The notes below the pieces were generated by a model that was not told the DNA's origin, made no database searches, and worked only from the letters and a program-made list of their open reading frames with translations. From Talaromyces rugulosus (Eukaryota > Ascomycota > Eurotiomycetes > Eurotiales > Trichocomaceae): a stretch of DNA of 64,000 nucleotides. Positions 6,368 to 53,888 of this stretch are shown here, piece after piece (within the stretch, counting starts at the first letter, position 1; every line of letters starts with the position of its first letter). The DNA lies in assembly GCF_013368755.1 (NCBI RefSeq), contig NC_049564.1, forward strand, positions 1,806,001 to 1,870,000, in the 5' to 3' direction. Made by a program: the position numbers and the translations under genes.

Positions 6368-7270
6368 TCAAGATGCACCTGTTGCGACATGCACTTCAAC
6401 ATCCCCTGTACCGGTGTTGCTGGTCTTTATGAAAACAAGGTCCAGAATTCCATCTCCGTTATAATCAATAAGCTGCCAAGTACCGTCGGTCTCTTCACCA
6501 AACGTTGTAGGCACCTCTTGAACGCGGGTCTTGTAGACAGACGACCCAGAAGCGATATGAACCTCGACCTTGTCGGTCCCAGTATTTTGGGTTTTGATGT
6601 ATGCCAGATCTAGCTTTCCGCTATTTTTATAGTTGACAATCTGCCAAACACCGTTTGATTCCTCTCCAAACGTAGTTCCGACTTCTTGGATACGAGTCTG
6701 GTAGTTTGATGCACCCGAGGCAACGTGTACTTCGACGGTACCAGTACCGGCGTCCTTGTCTTTGATGTAGACGAGATCGAGTTTTCCGTCCCCATCAAAG
6801 TCGATCATTTGCCACTGGCCGTTGTTTTCCTCCACAAAAGTGGTAGCAGTCTCGAGCACTCGGGTGTTATATGTAGAGGACCCTGAAGCAACATGAACCT
6901 CGACATAACCAGTGCTGGTGTTTGAGGTCTTGATATAGATCAGATCAAGTTTATTGTCTCCGTCATAATCAGCCAGTTGCCACGTGCCGTAGTTCTCTTC
7001 TCCAAAAGTTGTTGCAACCTCTTGGATACGAGTTTTATAGCTTGAAGAGCCAGAGGCTACGTGGACTTCGACACTGCCTGTTCCAGTGTTACTCGTTTTG
7101 ATATAGGTGAGGTCGGGAGGCGAGGTCCCAACGAAAGGGGCCAGAGCCCATGTCCCATATACTTCGGGAGCAGTGAAGGTGGTTCCAGCCTCGAAGATGC
7201 GTGTTTCATAAGGGGCTGCAAAGGCCAGAGGGAGATAAAACGTAGCAAAGAGGAAGTGTTTGACCTGCAT
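6368..7270 (-). CDS. Secreted FG-GAP/VCBS-type repeat protein (five blades)
   Basis: Single exon of 300 residues with an N-terminal signal peptide (MQVKHFLFATFYLPLAFAAP). The rest is five tandem copies of a unit of about 56 residues: Y-x-TR-x-x-E-x-x-TTF...GTWQL-x-D-YDGDNKLDL-x-YIKTSNT...VEVHVASGSS. The DxDGDxxxDL core is the calcium-binding loop of FG-GAP/VCBS propeller blades. It is intact in blades 2, 3 and 5 and degenerate in blades 1 and 4. Secreted propellers of this kind often bind carbohydrate, as in the PVL-type fungal lectins, but no specific ligand can be named. Five units is fewer than a normal seven-bladed propeller, so the protein may oligomerise. The ORF closes cleanly after blade 5. 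Confidence 0.85.
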   Translation of the reverse strand: MQVKHFLFATFYLPLAFAAPYETRIFEAGTTFTAPEVYGTWALAPFVGTSPPDLTYIKTSNTGTGSVEVHVASGSSSYKTRIQEVATTFGEENYGTWQLADYDGDNKLDLIYIKTSNTSTGYVEVHVASGSSTYNTRVLETATTFVEENNGQWQMIDFDGDGKLDLVYIKDKDAGTGTVEVHVASGASNYQTRIQEVGTTFGEESNGVWQIVNYKNSGKLDLAYIKTQNTGTDKVEVHIASGSSVYKTRVQEVPTTFGEETDGTWQLIDYNGDGILDLVFIKTSNTGTGDVEVHVATGAS

Positions 7271-8311
7271 TTTGTGGGTGAATTTTTTCGAATTTTGGGA
7301 AGAATAGAGTAAGGTTTTTGTCTGAGGATAAACAATTATTGAGATATAATGAGGAAATGAGTCTACTTTATACTTTTTTCGAGGCCATCAAAATATGTTC
7401 TAGAGCTACAAGTTGAAAACAAAATTTCGCCACTGAACTCAGAAGGGACAGATTTTCCGAGAATGAGTTGACAGTACTCCCTCATTTTTGAGAGAAATGT
7501 CTTGAAAATATACAACCCGATGCTGGTGATCGTCGTACCGGCGTCGCCGTTCGGGGAATTTCCAGCGAGCAGAGAGCAGTCCGCCACAATCGCGTGACGA
7601 GATCAAGGAAGACTTTCTCTTGACCTGGTTTAATAAAACTTATGTGGCGCGGCTGTGAGCCTTTTATGAATAGATTGATAGCAACCCGAAGGCTGGCTGT
7701 GAGCCTCGCTTAAAAAAATTTCAGCCAGCCTCGTTTTGTGACACATTGCCAATGAGCACACGTTCACCGAAGATGAGCCATGTATTTCGGGTTATAATAG
7801 ACTTTTGCCCATAGGACGATTTTACACGGAAAGTATTCGCTTGGACTAGAGCTGGAAATATGATTTTAACATTTCCATCGAAAATAAACTATTTTGCATG
7901 GCCATTTTTGATTCCATCTCGAAACTTGGATTTGGGATGATCAATAAGATTGACCGCACCCCAGTCCACTACCGACCATTTGGCCTATAGTCGCTTCCGA
8001 TGCTTTTTTCCTTTTTCTTTCCCTCCTTCTTCCCTGCTCTTCTTTCTTTTTGCAAATGAACGTTTCCACCGTGATTTGGGACGCGTCGCGTGTTGCCGCT
8101 AGCCCAAAGCGAGCTGTGGATACTAGGGCGATCCCCCTTGATATTAATCCCCATCCCAATAATAATGCCTGTAAATGTTATACCTTCAATTTTCGTTTTT
8201 TGAAGTTACATAGACAACCCGGAATTTTTTATCGGTAACAGTAAAGCTCATAATTTTTGTCCTATTCATCTAGGGAGTATCTTGTGTCCGTCTGCAGTCA
8301 CAATCTGAAGA
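7271..8311. other. Intergenic between divergent genes
   Basis: Promoter region shared by the FG-GAP protein (minus strand) and the oxygenase pseudogene (plus strand). A pyrimidine-rich tract at about 8003-8053 resembles those often found just upstream of fungal transcription starts. The short minus-strand frames here are its shadows. No gene is seen. Confidence 0.55.
7366..7372 (-). promoter_or_regulatory. TATA box candidate for the FG-GAP protein
   Basis: TATAAAG on the minus strand, about 96 bases upstream of the ATG of the repeat protein. Position and sequence fit a core promoter. Confidence 0.45.
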
Positions 8312-44321: not shown

Positions 44322-45924
44322 CTATTTGAAAGAGAAACCGATGAGATTGTTTTCAAGTTCCAAGTTCCAAGCTCTTTGGATCACGGTTTCCACTTGCTCA
44401 GCATCCTTGTATCCACCATACTCAAAAAGCGCTCTAGTCTTTGTTTCAAGCTCGGACCTAAAAGACTGTTAACTCATAAAATAAATGAGTGTAAAAACGT
44501 TCATAACTTACCTCGTCAATGGAATTTGAGGATCTCCTTTCAAATATTCAACCGACTTTGTGATTTTTTGACCGGATTTGCAAGTGACAATGACAGTTCC
44601 TTGCCATTCCTCGGGAAATTTGGAGTCAATGTCGGCATCGTATTCCATAACGACTCGATCCTGAAAATTACGCAGGGCCGAATCGTGGAGGCCCTGCTCG
44701 GTGAAGTCCGTAATCATAGCCTGCCCATTCCTAGCTGCTACTGCAAGCACAAAGCCCATTGTAAATTTGCTCTGGTGGACCGTCTCACCGCGACCACCGA
44801 GACCCAAAACATCGAGAGCAGCCCGATATGTGCGTGCAACAACCGATTCGATGTCATCAAATTTTAGCCCGTGGTCCTGCATCAAACTTAGTAGAGCATC
44901 GACGCTTGGGTGGGTGTGTCGACAGGACGCATGCCACTTAAAGCTGGATAAGAGAACTGCAAATTCTTGGCCTAGATTTCGGTCGATAGCCTCGGGCTTC
45001 GTACTACCTCGTCCATATGCATTCCCCATCCCCCGCGGGCCCTCGAGGATATCTCGTGGACCGAGTAGGCCGTCCCGGGCCGTGTACGCAGCAAAAATGC
45101 CATCGAAACATGCTTTGCCGGTATGAACCTGCTTTGAATGTGATGCATCGATCAAAAATTGCCATAGACCAGCTGCCTGGGTTCCCGCAGTCCCGATGGC
45201 AGAAAGCATGCGATCTAGGTCGAGTTTCAAAAGGTGGCCGACAGCAGCTGCGACACCGATAACTCCCCCGGTGGCTGTTGAATGAAACATCTGACTTATA
45301 TTAGCCAGGTCTGAACAAGGACATAGGGAGACGGGCGGACTTCGTAATGATTCTTTCCCAAATATTCTCCTACACGGCAACCGACTTCGTAGCCAACTAC
45401 ACAGGCGGCGATGAATTCTTTCCCATTTGCCTGTATATCTTGAGCGACTGCTAGAGCCGCGGGAAAAATTACAGTGGCCTAGGTGGAATTAGATCAAGTA
45501 ATGTATCCCAGGTATGAATTATCACGAGTGAAAATAAACGTAGTAAGCAACGTATATTTTACACCCTCGGGCTGTCACCTACCGGGTGCATCATACTTCG
45601 ATTGTGAAGATCATCCTGTTCGACTACATGAGAGGAAGCTCCATTCACCAACCCAGCAAAAGCCGGAGATGTCAAAAAGCCAATAGACCCATCCACAAAC
45701 TCGCTTTTCTTGCCTGCTGTAGGGCCCATCTCAGTGGTATATCGCGCTATGGCCGAGACAGCGGGGTGATGTCGGCCAGCTATAGCACATCCAAGCCAGT
45801 CGAGGAACAGCTCCTTTGTGCGTTCTATCACTTCCTGTGGGATATCCTGATATTGCAAATTAACAGCCCATTGTGCCAACTTTTCAGTGCGGGTTGCACC
45901 GAGGGTCTTATTAGAAGAGGACAT
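44322..45924 (-). CDS. MmgE/PrpD family protein (cis-aconitate decarboxylase/methylcitrate dehydratase-like)
   Basis: 464-residue soluble enzyme of the MmgE/PrpD fold, which dehydrates or decarboxylates small tricarboxylates. Four exons: 45583-45924, 45341-45478, 44512-45290 and 44322-44457; introns 45479-45582, 45291-45340 and 44458-44511. Seen: LFLDWLGCAIAGR; HVVEQDDLHNRSMMHP joined to ATVIFPAALA, carrying the conserved Asp and His of the active site; CVVGYEVGCRVGE; HSTATGGVIGVAAAVG; and SSFKWHASCRHTHPSVDALL. The second intron has a weak donor (GTCCGC). In Aspergillus terreus a related enzyme makes itaconate, but the family is broad and the substrate here is unknown. It borders the UstYa gene and may or may not belong to the peptide cluster. 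Confidence 0.9.
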
Positions 45925-48592: not shown

Positions 48593-49215
48593 ATGCCTTC
48601 CTTTGCCCAGGCTTTCACCTTGGCTGTGGCTGCCGCTACTTTGTCTTCGGCTTTGCCGGTTGCTGCGAAGGTATTTCGAGTCTCGACTATTGACCTTGCT
48701 ACTGCACTAGAAGACTAACTATGTTGGAGCGAGATGCTGTTGCCCAGCGATCTGAGCTGTACCCAGCTCCTGACCTAGGACGGATCAAGGTTGACGATAT
48801 CGAAAAACGTGCGGAGCTGTACCCAGCTCCCGATTTGGGAAGAATCAAGGTCGACGACATTGACCAGCGCTCAGAGCTCTACCCAGCCCCTGACCTTGGC
48901 CGCATTAAGGTAGACGACATCGACGAGCGTGCAGAGCTCTACCCAGCTCCCGACCTGGGTCGTATCAAGGTTGAAGACGAGAAACGCTCCGAGCTGTACC
49001 CTGCCCCGGATCTCGGCCGCATCAGGGTCGATGATATTGAGGAACGCGCGGAGCTCTACCCAGCTCCTGACCTGGGCCGTATTAAGGTTGAAGACGAGAA
49101 GCGTTCGGAGCTGTATCCTGCCCCGGATCTCGGTCGTATTAGGGTCGAAGACGAAAAGCGCTCTGAGCTCTATCCGGCCCCGGATCTTGGCCGCATCAAG
49201 GTAGATGATGAGTAA
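48593..49215 (+). CDS. Candidate RiPP precursor: signal peptide plus eight tandem core repeats
   Basis: Small secreted repeat protein, predicted peptide precursor of the ustiloxin/asperipin/epichloecyclin type. Exon 1 (48593-48670) encodes 26 residues, a signal peptide ending PVAAK. The intron runs 48671-48747 (CAG acceptor) or 48671-48729 (GAG acceptor); both keep the frame, and a CTAAC branch site is visible. Exon 2 (to 49215) encodes eight repeats of 20, 20, 20, 19, 20, 19, 19 and 17 residues, 181 residues in total with the preferred acceptor. Each repeat is [SA]ELYPAPDLGRI[KR]V[DE]D plus a short acidic tail ending in KR, QR or ER. With the CAG acceptor the junction reads ...AAK|RSELYP, creating a KR Kex2 site before repeat 1. 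One Tyr per repeat is the likely cyclisation residue. I recognise no known product. Confidence 0.88.
48751..49212 (+). repeat. Eight in-frame tandem repeats of 51-60 bases
   Basis: Units start at 48751, 48811, 48871, 48931, 48988, 49048, 49105 and 49162. The 11 residues ELYPAPDLGRI are identical in all eight, while synonymous positions differ widely: the Leu before Gly uses CTA, TTG, CTT, CTG and CTC. Units 5 and 7 share rare states (CCT-GCC-CCG-GAT-CTC and AGG), pointing to duplication of a block. Boundaries are dibasic KR after units 1, 4, 6 and 7, but QR or ER after 2, 3 and 5. Confidence 0.95.
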
Positions 49216-49810: not shown

Positions 49811-51480
49811 ATGGACTCCCCATCAACGTCCATTTCCCATTTCCTCATATCAAATTCTAGATTCCTAGTTGTGCTCGGCACATCTATCTTTGCCGGGTTT
49901 TTAGTTGCTGTCCTTTATATAACAATACTATATCCAACAATATTCTCTCCCCTCAAAGATATTCCAACGCCCGATCGGTCTTTTCTTTCCGGGACTACTC
50001 TGTCGTCGCCATCTATACGCTCTCTCATTGGCAAGGCTCGGTATTGGGTCAAAACAGTCCCCAATGATGGACTCATCAGAATATACTTGAAGGGTGTCCG
50101 CGAAAGGCTGCTCGTTACAAGCCCCCAAGCACTTGGTGAAATACTTGTTACGAAGGCCTCTCATTTTGCGAAGCCACCATTTGTGAGGCAGCGTCTACAC
50201 TACGTGACGGGAAACGGCTTACTACTAGCCGAGGGAGATGAGCACAAAGTAAGTAATGATTAATACTATCATTCTACAAGCCATTAATTTAACAATTGCA
50301 CACCGTGTAGGAACAGCGAAGGAGTCTTATGCCTGCTTTCGCCTTCCGACATATCAAGGATCTATACCCGGTTTTCTGGCTGAAGGCGAAGGAATTATCA
50401 AAAGGTATTCAAGACCATGTAAATTCCAACCAATTAAATGGATCGAATAATGTTATCGAGGTGCGGAAATGGTCTCGTCGCGCCACGTTGGATATCATCG
50501 GCCTTGCTGGAATGGAATATGATTTCGATTCGCTAAGGGATCCACACAATCCTATCAGTCTGCAGTACGAAAAGATGATACAGAATCCATCGCTATTTGA
50601 GGTTATTATTGGATTATGCCTATCTGCCTTCATGCCGGCAAGAGATGCTAGTGTGATTCTCCGCCTACCAACAAAGCGTGTGAGAGAAATGAGAAAAGCG
50701 TCCCTCTATATTCGCCAACTATGTCAAACAATTATTGAGCAAAAGCAAGCGAAAATAAAATCGTCGACCTCACACGTCGATATAGACATTATCTCGGTTG
50801 CCCTACGAAGTAACACTTTCAGCAGTGAAAATCTGGTCGACCAAATGATGACATTCTTGGCAGCTGGACATGGCACTACCTCTATTGCTTTGCAATGGGC
50901 TATTTATGCACTCTGCAAGAATAACGTCATACAAGAACGCCTACGCCGAGAGATCCGGGAAAACCTGCCGTCAATCAGTGATAACAACTGCACCATATTA
51001 GCTGATGATATTGATAGCCTCCCATATTTGCACGCTTTTTGCAACGAGGTCCTCCGGTATTGGCCACCTGTGCCAAGTACTGTTCGTGAAGCTCTTCATG
51101 ATACTACTGTTGCAGGTTGCCCCATCCCCAAGGGCACGATTTTTACTCTTGCGCCGGCAGCGACAAACCATGACACCGAGCTTTGGGGACCAGATGCAGA
51201 TATTTTCAAACCCGAACGCTGGATGAGGGAAGATTGTGTCAACTCTGGAGGAGTCAAGAGTAACTACGGATTCCTGACTTTTATTCATGGCCCTCGAAGT
51301 TGCCCCGGTGATCGATTTGCGAAAGCGGAATTGGCCTGCATGGTGGCTACACTCGTCGGCAGATTTCGTGTCGAACTAGAAGATCCGAGGAAGGAAGAGG
51401 TGTTTGATGGAGACGGTATTGCTGGGGTTGCACCATCAGACGGTGTCCGTGCAAAATTCGAGGTCATAGACGGATGGTGA
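49811..51480 (+). CDS. Cytochrome P450 monooxygenase
   Basis: Microsomal haem-thiolate monooxygenase of 535 residues. Exons 49811-50248 and 50311-51480; intron 50249-50310. Seen: an N-terminal membrane anchor (VVLGTSIFAGFLVAVLYITILY), LLLAEGDEHKEQRRSLMPAF across the splice (the C-helix region with its W/H-x-x-x-R-like motif), I-helix AAGHGTTS, K-helix EVLR, PERW, and the haem loop FIHGPRSCPGD with the ligand at Cys477. Length and motifs are complete. The ATG at 49811 is the first Met in frame. It lies directly downstream of the peptide precursor on the same strand and could add a hydroxyl or a cross-link to the peptide, or serve an unrelated pathway. Confidence 0.94.
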
Positions 51481-51904
51481 ATGCTTGTGTGTATGCCTGC
51501 TTGTTTATACGTTAGTTTATGTGGGATTGCCAATTTCTTTAATTACTCGCTCTATCTGAACCAATCTTATTATAATACTTATAATCTTCCAAAGACATTG
51601 TTTACACTTTAGAAATCAATACACGGCGAATAATTACTAGTTCTTGTAGCTTGAAAGGACGAGAGTATTGAAACTCCTAGAAACGGTATCCCCTAAATAA
51701 AAGCCAATATCCTTCACAATAATGCTCATTGGATAGAATAAGCCATATATAAGGCGACATGAAACCTACTAGCAATTGCATAGAGTATAGACAAATAGAT
51801 TGAAGAATAAGTGCCGCTGATTGGCTCAAGCGCCCGCACCGCAACCATATCTTCCCGGCGCTTCTTCGACCTGCATAAATCATCGCAAAGAATCGGCAAT
51901 CACA
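51481..51904. other. Intergenic
   Basis: 3' flank of the P450 and promoter of the regulator. No feature recognised. Confidence 0.5.
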
Positions 51905-53888
51905 ATGAGAGGTCGCAAGAAAGATTTCGTCGCATGTGTTCATTGCCGGCAGATGAAAGTATGTGTGACCAATCCTAGCCATTTTTCTCTCGTTAATACT
52001 GTACTAGTTGGCGTGTGATGGGCCGCGGAATTTCCCGGCTGCCTGTTCCAGATGCACCAAGGCCGGACGACTGTGTTCTGTCGATCCAGGATTTCGGCGT
52101 GTGAAAAAGAGAGAGTGCGTTTAAATCCCTCTTTGACGCCTTGTGTATTGAATTTGCGGTTTCTAAGCTAGATAAAGAAAGTTTAAAGAAGTGGAGAGAG
52201 AACTACGAGAGATCAAGCAATCCCTGCGAACAGGCGATGAACACGATCAAGATGTCGAGGGCGCTTCTCACACAGATACTAGCACACTGACGGCTTTGCC
52301 ATCATCCATCCTCCCACAGCCCGAGGCTTTGGAAACTGCTCCTACAGGCAGGACTATAGGAGGAATACACCTTTTACCAAATTTACAACAGGATCTCATA
52401 ACCGAGTATGCCCGACCATTTGGAGAGCTCACAAGCAACACAAATCGATGCAGGATATAGCTAACTTTATGAAAGATTCTATGAAGACTATCACCCATTC
52501 TGTCCGATCCTACCGCATCCTAGGGCCTTTCTAGGGTATGCCGAGTTATGTCCCCTTCTTCTCTACATAGTCCTCGTTACCGCTTTACGTGGGAAGCCAG
52601 AGCACAATGAGTTGTTCTTGGCACTCGTCGACACGGTTCGCACCATGTCCTACGAGCTGATGAGGCCGGAATTCGTCTCACTTCAGACGATGCAAGCCTT
52701 CTTGCTATTGTGCTACTGGCCTCTGCCCTACTCCAAGAGAATCGACGATCCAACGCATTCATTCATAGCACTGGCAACTCATATTGGATACAGTCTAGGA
52801 ATGCATAGAGCGCCTCGTTATGCAAAAGACTTTGACAATAAATTGTCGGTAGATGGAAACATGGAGGTTTGCCGGCGAATAACTTGGGTGGTTTGCTTTA
52901 TCACAAACGTGAGGTAGGGTTTCCATCTCTATTAAAAACGTCAGTCGTTAGAAGGAAACTATATTAACGTTTCTTTTTTATCAGTGCCACAAGTCAACTC
53001 GGGCTTCCAACGAGTATTCGGCTAGATCGAGGTCTGTTGGAAATACTCGCAGCAAAACCTACCTGGCTTCCCGAGACCCTGTTTTACCAGCTACATGTTT
53101 CTCGCCAAGCCTTTAATATGAACTTGACTTTTGAAGACTTTGAACATTTTCTTAAAGACAATCCAGCGGACTCTAGCCCAATTATCCGCGCTTTTGATAT
53201 GGAGATGCGGAGCCTGGAATCTCGGTTTTCCCTATCATGGTCGCCAGGCGACTATATCTTTTTTTTAGGGTGTCGAATGATGCTATACACAATTGCACTT
53301 ACCATGGTGTCTGATACCCTGGAAGAAAGCAACGTTGTCTCTACTACGATCGAGTCTCCTTGTTACTGGGTGGTCCAGACCTACATTACCGCAATCAGCA
53401 CCATCAGGACTGCAGTCTCGATACAAGACACGATATTCAATTCTCCGGTTCGCATGCATAAGCTTTTGATAAATGCAATTTGCTATCTGGTTTTGCTTAA
53501 ATGTTCGAGATTCCAAGACCTTGTCGACAACAGTACACTTAGCAACGGGATTCGTCAGGGGTGGGAAGTCTTACGAGGCTTGTCTATTACCCCTAATGAT
53601 TTCACTACCCGAGCATGTAGTATATGTGAGCGACTTAGTCGGTATAGTGATGACTTAAAGCCAGAAGAGAGGACAAAGGGGTTATTGGTCCTGAAGTCTA
53701 GAATGGGCGCCAATATCGCGTTCAGCACAGCTTTAAGGGCAAGAGAATGGTCGCGACAAACGCAGGGTGATACCTCGTCAACGGAAATAAATGACGGCGA
53801 GGAGCCCGCAGATGCTTTCAGTATCGAAGACCTGAGTTTATTTGCTGATATAAACTGGGAGGATCTGTTTCCAGTCTTGGGGACTTAG
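51905..53888 (+). CDS. Zn2Cys6 transcription factor (fungal_trans type)
   Basis: Candidate pathway-specific regulator of 576 residues. Proposed exons: 51905-51958, 52008-52114, 52178-52405, 52476-52913 and 52985-53888. The zinc-cluster ligands are C11, C14, C21, C31, C34 and C41. A KFKEVERELREI coiled-coil linker follows, then an FYEDYHPFCPILP block and IDDPTHSFIALATHIGYSLGMHRAP, characteristic of the fungal_trans domain. Introns 1, 4 and 5 boundaries are clear. The second intron needs an AAG acceptor (52177) and the third ends at GAAAG (52475) after a GCTAAC branch site, so those two joins are less certain. It sits between the P450 and the FAD monooxygenase and is a natural candidate to bind CCG/CGG elements of the cluster. 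Confidence 0.87.

Follow-up and report, generated by a model that had tools for sequence, protein, structure and literature searches.

A tandem-repeat peptide precursor beside a UstYa-family oxidase in Talaromyces rugulosus: a probable dikaritin-type RiPP locus

The window analysed here, a 64,000-nucleotide stretch of Talaromyces rugulosus contig NC_049564.1, contains a gene for a tandem-repeat peptide precursor and, as its divergent neighbour, a gene for a UstYa-family oxidase (Table 1). We propose that the locus is probably an uncharacterised dikaritin-type RiPP system consisting minimally of these two genes; the neighbouring P450, regulator and MmgE/PrpD genes may not belong to it. The original prediction had read the locus as dikaritin-type. 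That reading is supported, with modification, cyclisation, the core residues, expression and full Kex2 cutting remaining predicted.

Table 1. Positions of the precursor gene, its repeat array and the adjoining genes in the window.
Feature	Position	Strand	Remarks
Precursor gene	48593-48670 + 48730-49215	+	Two exons, 187 residues; ATG at 48593, TAA ends at 49215
Precursor exon 1	48593..48670	+	Start codon, hydrophobic leader to ...PVAAK (hydropathy profile)
Predicted 59-nt intron	48671..48729	+	GTATTT ... CTAAC ... GGAG; stop in unspliced frame
Precursor exon 2	48730..49215	+	Completes KR, then DAVAQR spacer, eight repeat units, stop
Array of eight units, [SA]ELYPAPDLGRI[KR]V[DE]D...	48751..49212	+	Tandem Repeats Finder and translation
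UstYa-family oxidase, 353 aa	46239..47364	-	PF11807, E 3.4e-45; divergent neighbour of precursor
UstYa exons	47364-47019, 46954-46239	-	Intron 47018-46955, one among several frame-keeping choices
MmgE/PrpD (aconitate decarboxylase / methylcitrate dehydratase-like)	44511..45924	-	Partial model; membership doubtful
Cytochrome P450, 535 aa	49811..51480	+	Intron 50249-50310; possible tailoring enzyme, membership uncertain
Fungal transcription factor	51900..53888 (start approximate)	+	Fungal_trans domain, split Zn2Cys6-like N-terminus; membership uncertain

The precursor gene and its repeat array

The start and stop codons of the precursor gene lie exactly where the original prediction had placed them. 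Once spliced, the gene would encode a hydrophobic leader (MPSFAQAFTLAVAAATLSSALPVAA, ending PVAA), KR, a DAVAQR spacer and eight repeat units, in that order. Splicing is predicted from sequence signals, with ten frame-keeping GT-AG choices available; the intron in Table 1 is preferred because of its donor, its branch-like site and the KR that its removal creates. The repeat-bearing frame is open for 173 codons without a stop, a Pfam scan of it returned no family, and the gene is single-copy in its own genome. The repeats predicted to follow a signal peptide are present, while the leader, hydrophobic by a hydropathy profile as sole measure, is a putative ER signal peptide.

Tandem Repeats Finder reported six rows for the window, two of which are short ACA-type repeats elsewhere; because the other four describe the array, it is not a chance repeat. 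All eight units keep ELYPAPDLGRI and contain a single Tyr, as had been claimed. The tails were said to end in basic residues, which holds for seven of the eight units and fails for the last, which runs to the stop codon. The inter-unit junctions read IEKR, IDQR, IDER, DEKR, IEER, DEKR and DEKR in order. The predicted Kex2-cut plan is thus borne out by dibasic KR at four of the seven junctions and contradicted by monobasic QR, ER and ER at the other three. In the spliced model, KR lies at residues 26, 52, 111, 150 and 169, marking off five repeat-bearing segments. By the criteria of the survey of Kex2-processed repeat proteins (the KEP survey, PMC7329392), applied directly to the spliced model, the protein has the three or more tandem repeats, each of 8+ residues between dibasic sites, that are asked for. 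For linear units minus their basic end, the calculated monoisotopic masses are 2029.037 (SELYPAPDLGRIKVDDIE), 1915.953 (SELYPAPDLGRIKVDDE) and 1913.973 (AELYPAPDLGRIKVEDE).

Among the eight copies, 12 columns of the 33-nt block vary, ten at third positions and two at first positions, the latter falling in Leu and Arg codons. At least 19 changes have occurred in this block with zero amino-acid differences, and selection therefore maintains ELYPAPDLGRI. When 19 random changes were simulated 20,000 times, under a simple model in which changes are independent and the repeat phylogeny is left aside, no set was entirely synonymous. For the 15-codon units, pS averages 0.71 and pN 0.056. Judged by these substitutions, the copies are old enough for heavy silent-site divergence, and each appears to have been kept.

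Homologues of the precursor

A search of 5.8 billion clustered proteins, in which 8000 candidates were scored, returned only two proteins at E up to 1. P0001 (OHK93_002961, 106 aa) comes from a metagenome-assembled genome of the lichen Ramalina farinacea, and P0002 (109 aa) is a JGI protein. Shorter or unannotated precursors would escape this search because candidate length was limited to about 103-327 residues. Each homologue has an N-terminal hydrophobic leader (judged by eye) followed by three units. KR occupies all four of their inter-unit junctions; ahead of its first unit, P0001 has KR and P0002 has ER. P0002 contains an extra stretch after ...ALPVDK, at the position matching the intron of the window gene, that reads like an unspliced intron and may well be one.

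Across the three proteins, E-L-Y-P-A-P-D-L-G-R-I-[KR]-V-[DE]-D is present in 14 of 14 units (six of six in the homologues, each with its Tyr). The block ELYPAPDLGRI, the V and the final D are fixed, K and R divide 12 to 2, and D and E divide 7 to 7; the residue before the block and the tail after it are variable. The core window put forward originally agrees with this conserved stretch. Its core had not been recognised from any known product, and fragments of the block likewise gave a single, irrelevant paper in the open literature searched and do not occur in the main text of the KEP survey. A Trichoderma RiPP survey proposes, in the part of its text available to us, an unrelated core (PMC7099791).

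Two other origins for the core were considered and rejected. A structure-database sequence search with a 36-residue two-unit piece matched only two chemokine sequences (E 0.6 and 1.3), which amount to nothing as signs of mimicry of a solved protein. The back-translated LYPAPDLG pattern gave 97 prokaryotic matches (80 listed) and 8 viral ones, with a single match in each viral and each listed prokaryotic stretch. Because no tandem array occurs among the matches listed, which look like chance, a bacterial or viral origin was set aside.

The UstYa-family oxidase and the adjoining genes

The UstYa-family protein contains two motifs, HVLHC and HLRHC, and a stretch that, judged by eye, is hydrophobic and probably spans the membrane. 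Its gene starts 1,228 bp from the start of the precursor gene, so that the locus has the UstYa/DUF3328 gene near a precursor that is expected of a dikaritin. The original prediction had named structural repeat-protein homologues lacking UstYa neighbours as evidence that would tell against it. Instead, the gene adjoining the precursor encodes a UstYa protein with the two HXXHC motifs, and both homologues from the protein search are short leader-plus-repeat proteins. In the 35.76 Mb six-contig genome, PF11807 has 43 matches at 25 loci (grouped at 15 kb), and sequence no more than 1,228 bp from such a match makes up about 0.3% of the genome.

A search for homologues of the oxidase gave 20 matches at E up to 1e-20 from 864 candidates. 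They include proteins from Eurotiales (Talaromyces pinophilus, T. verruculosus, T. stipitatus, Paecilomyces lecythidis and Thermoascus crustaceus), Lecanoromycetes (Letrouitia and Psora testacea) and Dothideomycetes (Delitschia confertaspora). BLAST identity is 54-73% for 18 matches, with 63-95% of the query covered; the other two are a JGI fragment, P0003 (98%), and an Aspergillus fijiensis protein, the last match (38%). When the window protein was aligned with 11 of the matches, identity was 50-65% for ten and 32% for A. fijiensis. The best paralogues, among the loci fetched from its own genome, are 33% identical.

The distance between the two HXXHC motifs is 45 in the window protein and 45-46 in 17 of the 18 two-motif subfamily matches. 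Exceptions are P0020 (43), P0021, which keeps one motif, and the A. fijiensis protein (33). In the own-genome stretches, a further ten H..HC pairs could be read within a single frame. The distance is 26-35 in the seven UstYa-like pairs; the other three, discounted on inspection by eye, have 31 (L022, plus strand), 30 (L040) and 54 (L035, possibly with an intron inside). In the subfamily of the window protein, the additional residues form a segment, ..FDGEKYHMEGYGPES..PKR.H.., that is conserved across classes. Because the longer spacing is common to the window protein and its homologues, we place it, by sequence, in a subfamily that extends over several classes and has an additional segment between the HXXHC motifs. 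A sequence search for a solved UstYa structure found none at E up to 10. In the model of the T. pinophilus homologue, whose mean pLDDT of 57 is too low for comparing folds, a helix spans 73-95 and helices lie over both HXXHC motifs.

Eighteen of the 24 other UstYa loci in the genome were inspected, as 20 stretches, and four of the 18 have a repeat-precursor-like frame among the script rows, by inspection. The script recovered the window array; the other-frame shadows of these arrays that it also flagged were not counted, nor was a secreted-looking protein with FG-GAP-type repeats at 6371-7387 of the window (minus strand). L034:6099-6386 (minus strand, C1 near 2.038 Mb) encodes seven copies of VEDYFIGADKR near a UstYa gene and is an ustiloxin-type YxIx precursor. 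L030:7642-8241 (plus strand, C6 near 4.394 Mb), with 14 copies of KRDELDGDLYNY near UstYa matches, is a probable Tyr-containing repeat precursor. L029:8442-8903 (plus strand, C6 near 4.892 Mb) has six units of ARSIYTYGVTEYEDK.. without dibasic sites, near three UstYa matches. Finally, L023:5962-6561 (minus strand, C5 near 3.950 Mb), amid four UstYa matches, encodes a leader-bearing protein with three copies of KRACAAVGGGSAAAAC...; its units are KR-spaced, contain Cys (ACAAVGGGSAAAAC) and lack Tyr, making it a possible non-tyrosine UstYa substrate.

A wider form of our proposal, whose odds overlap with those of the two-gene system, would join the precursor and UstYa genes with those for the P450, transcription factor, FAD monooxygenase and MmgE/PrpD protein in one cluster making a heavily tailored product. 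The P450 gene starts 595 bp past the precursor stop on the same strand, the MmgE gene adjoins the UstYa gene on the latter's strand, and a Zn2Cys6-type regulator lies beyond. Ustiloxin biosynthesis, too, involves a P450 and a regulator of its cluster, along with FMOs (PMC6514808, PMC10512285). The Zn2Cys6 motif of the regulator in the window was read by eye from the frames, an unsplit motif scan having found none, and the MmgE model remains partial, another intron being likely. Against the larger cluster stands a chimeric-query search for MmgE and P450 homologues (best 120 of 3323, named by cluster representative). The best named match to each is from Talaromyces proteolyticus, on contigs of equal length (631,144), and none of the 20 UstYa matches carries the name of that species; MmgE relatives are also common in Penicillium and Aspergillus among these best 120 of 3323. 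MmgE and P450 may therefore form a module separate from UstYa, and because the pair may travel without it, the precursor and UstYa genes are taken as the minimal unit. Also unfavourable is the lack of a convincing common control site in the four intergenic gaps. Four 10-mers are each common to two of the four, and the 314-bp gap between MmgE and UstYa is the only one with more CGG/CCG pairs than background (3, where about 1.4 would be expected). On this evidence, the larger cluster is possible but somewhat doubtful.

Among 40 ORF fragments that were Pfam-scanned (of 103 of at least 110 aa), none is a tyrosinase, S41 peptidase or methyltransferase. The window contains one UstYa gene, and MFS-type genes only at 13.8-21.9 kb. 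Between 54156 and 63052, genes for an FAD monooxygenase, an amidohydrolase, a questin-oxidase-like protein and a DUF3425 protein lie in a row, possibly a separate metabolite cluster.

The precursor could instead yield an unmodified linear Kex2-processed repeat peptide, a pheromone- or hormone-like signal to which the neighbouring UstYa is unrelated. Linear repeat peptides such as mating factors share the same architecture, a 15-residue stretch kept between this fungus and Ramalina would suit the ligand of a conserved receptor, and 78% of surveyed precursors (6120/7878) have no nearby DUF3328 gene (PMC7329392). However, the UstYa gene is the immediate divergent neighbour, a placement with a chance of about 0.3%, and nearly all surveyed mating-factor precursors lack DUF3328 neighbours (PMC7329392). 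The UstYa subfamily and the precursor family, moreover, both occur in Lecanoromycetes, in different named species. We therefore consider a linear signal improbable. An unprocessed, secreted repeat protein with a structural or cell-wall role would suit a small acidic protein with tandem repeats and no KR at three of seven junctions, but is very hard to reconcile with KR at four of seven junctions here and four of four in the homologues, the UstYa neighbour and the absence of any Pfam family in the repeat frame.

Proposed pathway and relation to known systems

UstYa-family (DUF3328) genes most often directly adjoin repeat-precursor genes (PMC7329392), and their products are required for cyclising Kex2-processed repeat peptides (PMC10512285, PMC6514808, PMC7329392). 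Ustiloxin, asperipin-2a and phomopsin contain Tyr-ring ether bonds, with desaturation also described for phomopsin (PMC10512285, PMC6514808, PMC7329392). Tyr is usual, not strict, being present in 65.6% of DUF3328-linked repeats (PMC7329392); here it is found in every repeat of the window gene and of its homologues.

By analogy, in the dikaritin-type system that we favour, the precursor would enter the ER via its leader. The KR sites suggest that Kex2 then cuts at dibasic sites and a carboxypeptidase trims the ends, freeing units of about 16-20 residues. Units at the three monobasic junctions may be released more slowly, stay fused or be freed by a later protease. The unit would be the substrate of the adjacent, probably membrane-anchored oxidase, and the most likely target within it is the single Tyr, which sits in L-Y-P-A-P-D-L and is followed by P-A-P. 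From the family, the expected result is a Tyr-derived cross-link or other oxidation, which may be hydroxylation or desaturation, within xELYPAPDLGRI[KR]V[DE]D. Because conservation spans 15 positions, from E to D, either the long unit is itself the mature product or the UstYa subfamily recognises the tail as a fixed sequence.

The linkage of precursor and UstYa appears so far in the window of this genome only. The species named for the precursor and for UstYa matches do not overlap, names being those of cluster representatives and short precursors often being unannotated, and no Ramalina protein is named among the 20 UstYa matches. Conservation of the sequence suggests a conserved target. More speculatively, and on balance unlikely, the peptide may be an ancient UstYa-modified one, its whole 15-residue unit constant across at least two, probably three, Ascomycota classes and served by a dedicated UstYa subfamily. 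It would then serve as a hormone or defence signal that is both modified and conserved, in contrast to a toxin that is confined to one lineage and changes fast, and the extra oxidase segment might recognise the long unit.

The locus is a very small testable unit of one precursor and one oxidase. Five dikaritins had been reported by 2022 (PMC10512285), and a 2020 survey counted 1758 precursors with a nearby DUF3328 gene (PMC7329392). In that survey of 1461 genomes, KEP types G-3, G-6 and G-10 are likewise repeat precursors, mostly with DUF3328 neighbours, and Talaromyces is represented in G-3 and G-6 (PMC7329392). We rejected identity with G-3, which carries di-histidine motifs, and with G-10, which is of YxIx type (PMC7329392). 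The many genera that PMC7329392 names for G-6 (Aspergillus, Histoplasma and others) are absent from our precursor matches. Identity with a smaller type is possible, the types having been compared by main-text description. The lichen record, from Ramalina farinacea, is a three-unit repeat precursor, whereas a 2025 survey describes two lichen RiPP clans without repeated core sequences and does not mention Ramalina in its main text (PMC12048977).

PMC12048977 quotes a five-gene dikaritin definition by Ding et al., with tyrosinase, methyltransferase, several DUF3328 proteins, and transporter or peptidase. That combination was not seen among the ORF fragments scanned from the window; asperipin-2a is counted as a dikaritin with four genes and one UstYa (PMC12048977, PMC6514808). 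As here, the asperipin-2a locus of Aspergillus flavus (aprA/aprY) places a precursor beside a single UstYa homologue, without a tyrosinase (PMC6514808, PMC12048977). Its four-gene cluster includes transporter and reductase genes, and its hexapeptide core, FYYTGY, has three Tyr (PMC6514808, PMC12048977), whereas the conserved 15-residue stretch here has one and the gene pair is flanked by P450 and MmgE/PrpD.

The ustiloxin and phomopsin precursors (UstA and PhomA) likewise have a leader, many repeats, KR sites and UstYa-family oxidases (PMC10512285, PMC6514808), and their EDYXI motif places an acidic residue two before Tyr, as in ELY here (PMC6339444). Those systems differ in their YxIx cores, their two and five UstYa-family proteins, respectively, and their tyrosinase and methyltransferase, none of which was seen here; the present unit has no Tyr-x-Ile spacing. 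The YFIG-type precursor in the same genome (L034) also has tandem KR units near a UstYa gene, but is ustiloxin-like and shares no core with the window gene. The Tyr-Pro-Ala-Pro-Asp context is unlike both the YxIx and the FYYTGY cores. By these comparisons, the locus would be a previously uncharacterised example of the known dikaritin-type class, in which conservation of the whole unit appears unusually deep across fungal classes.
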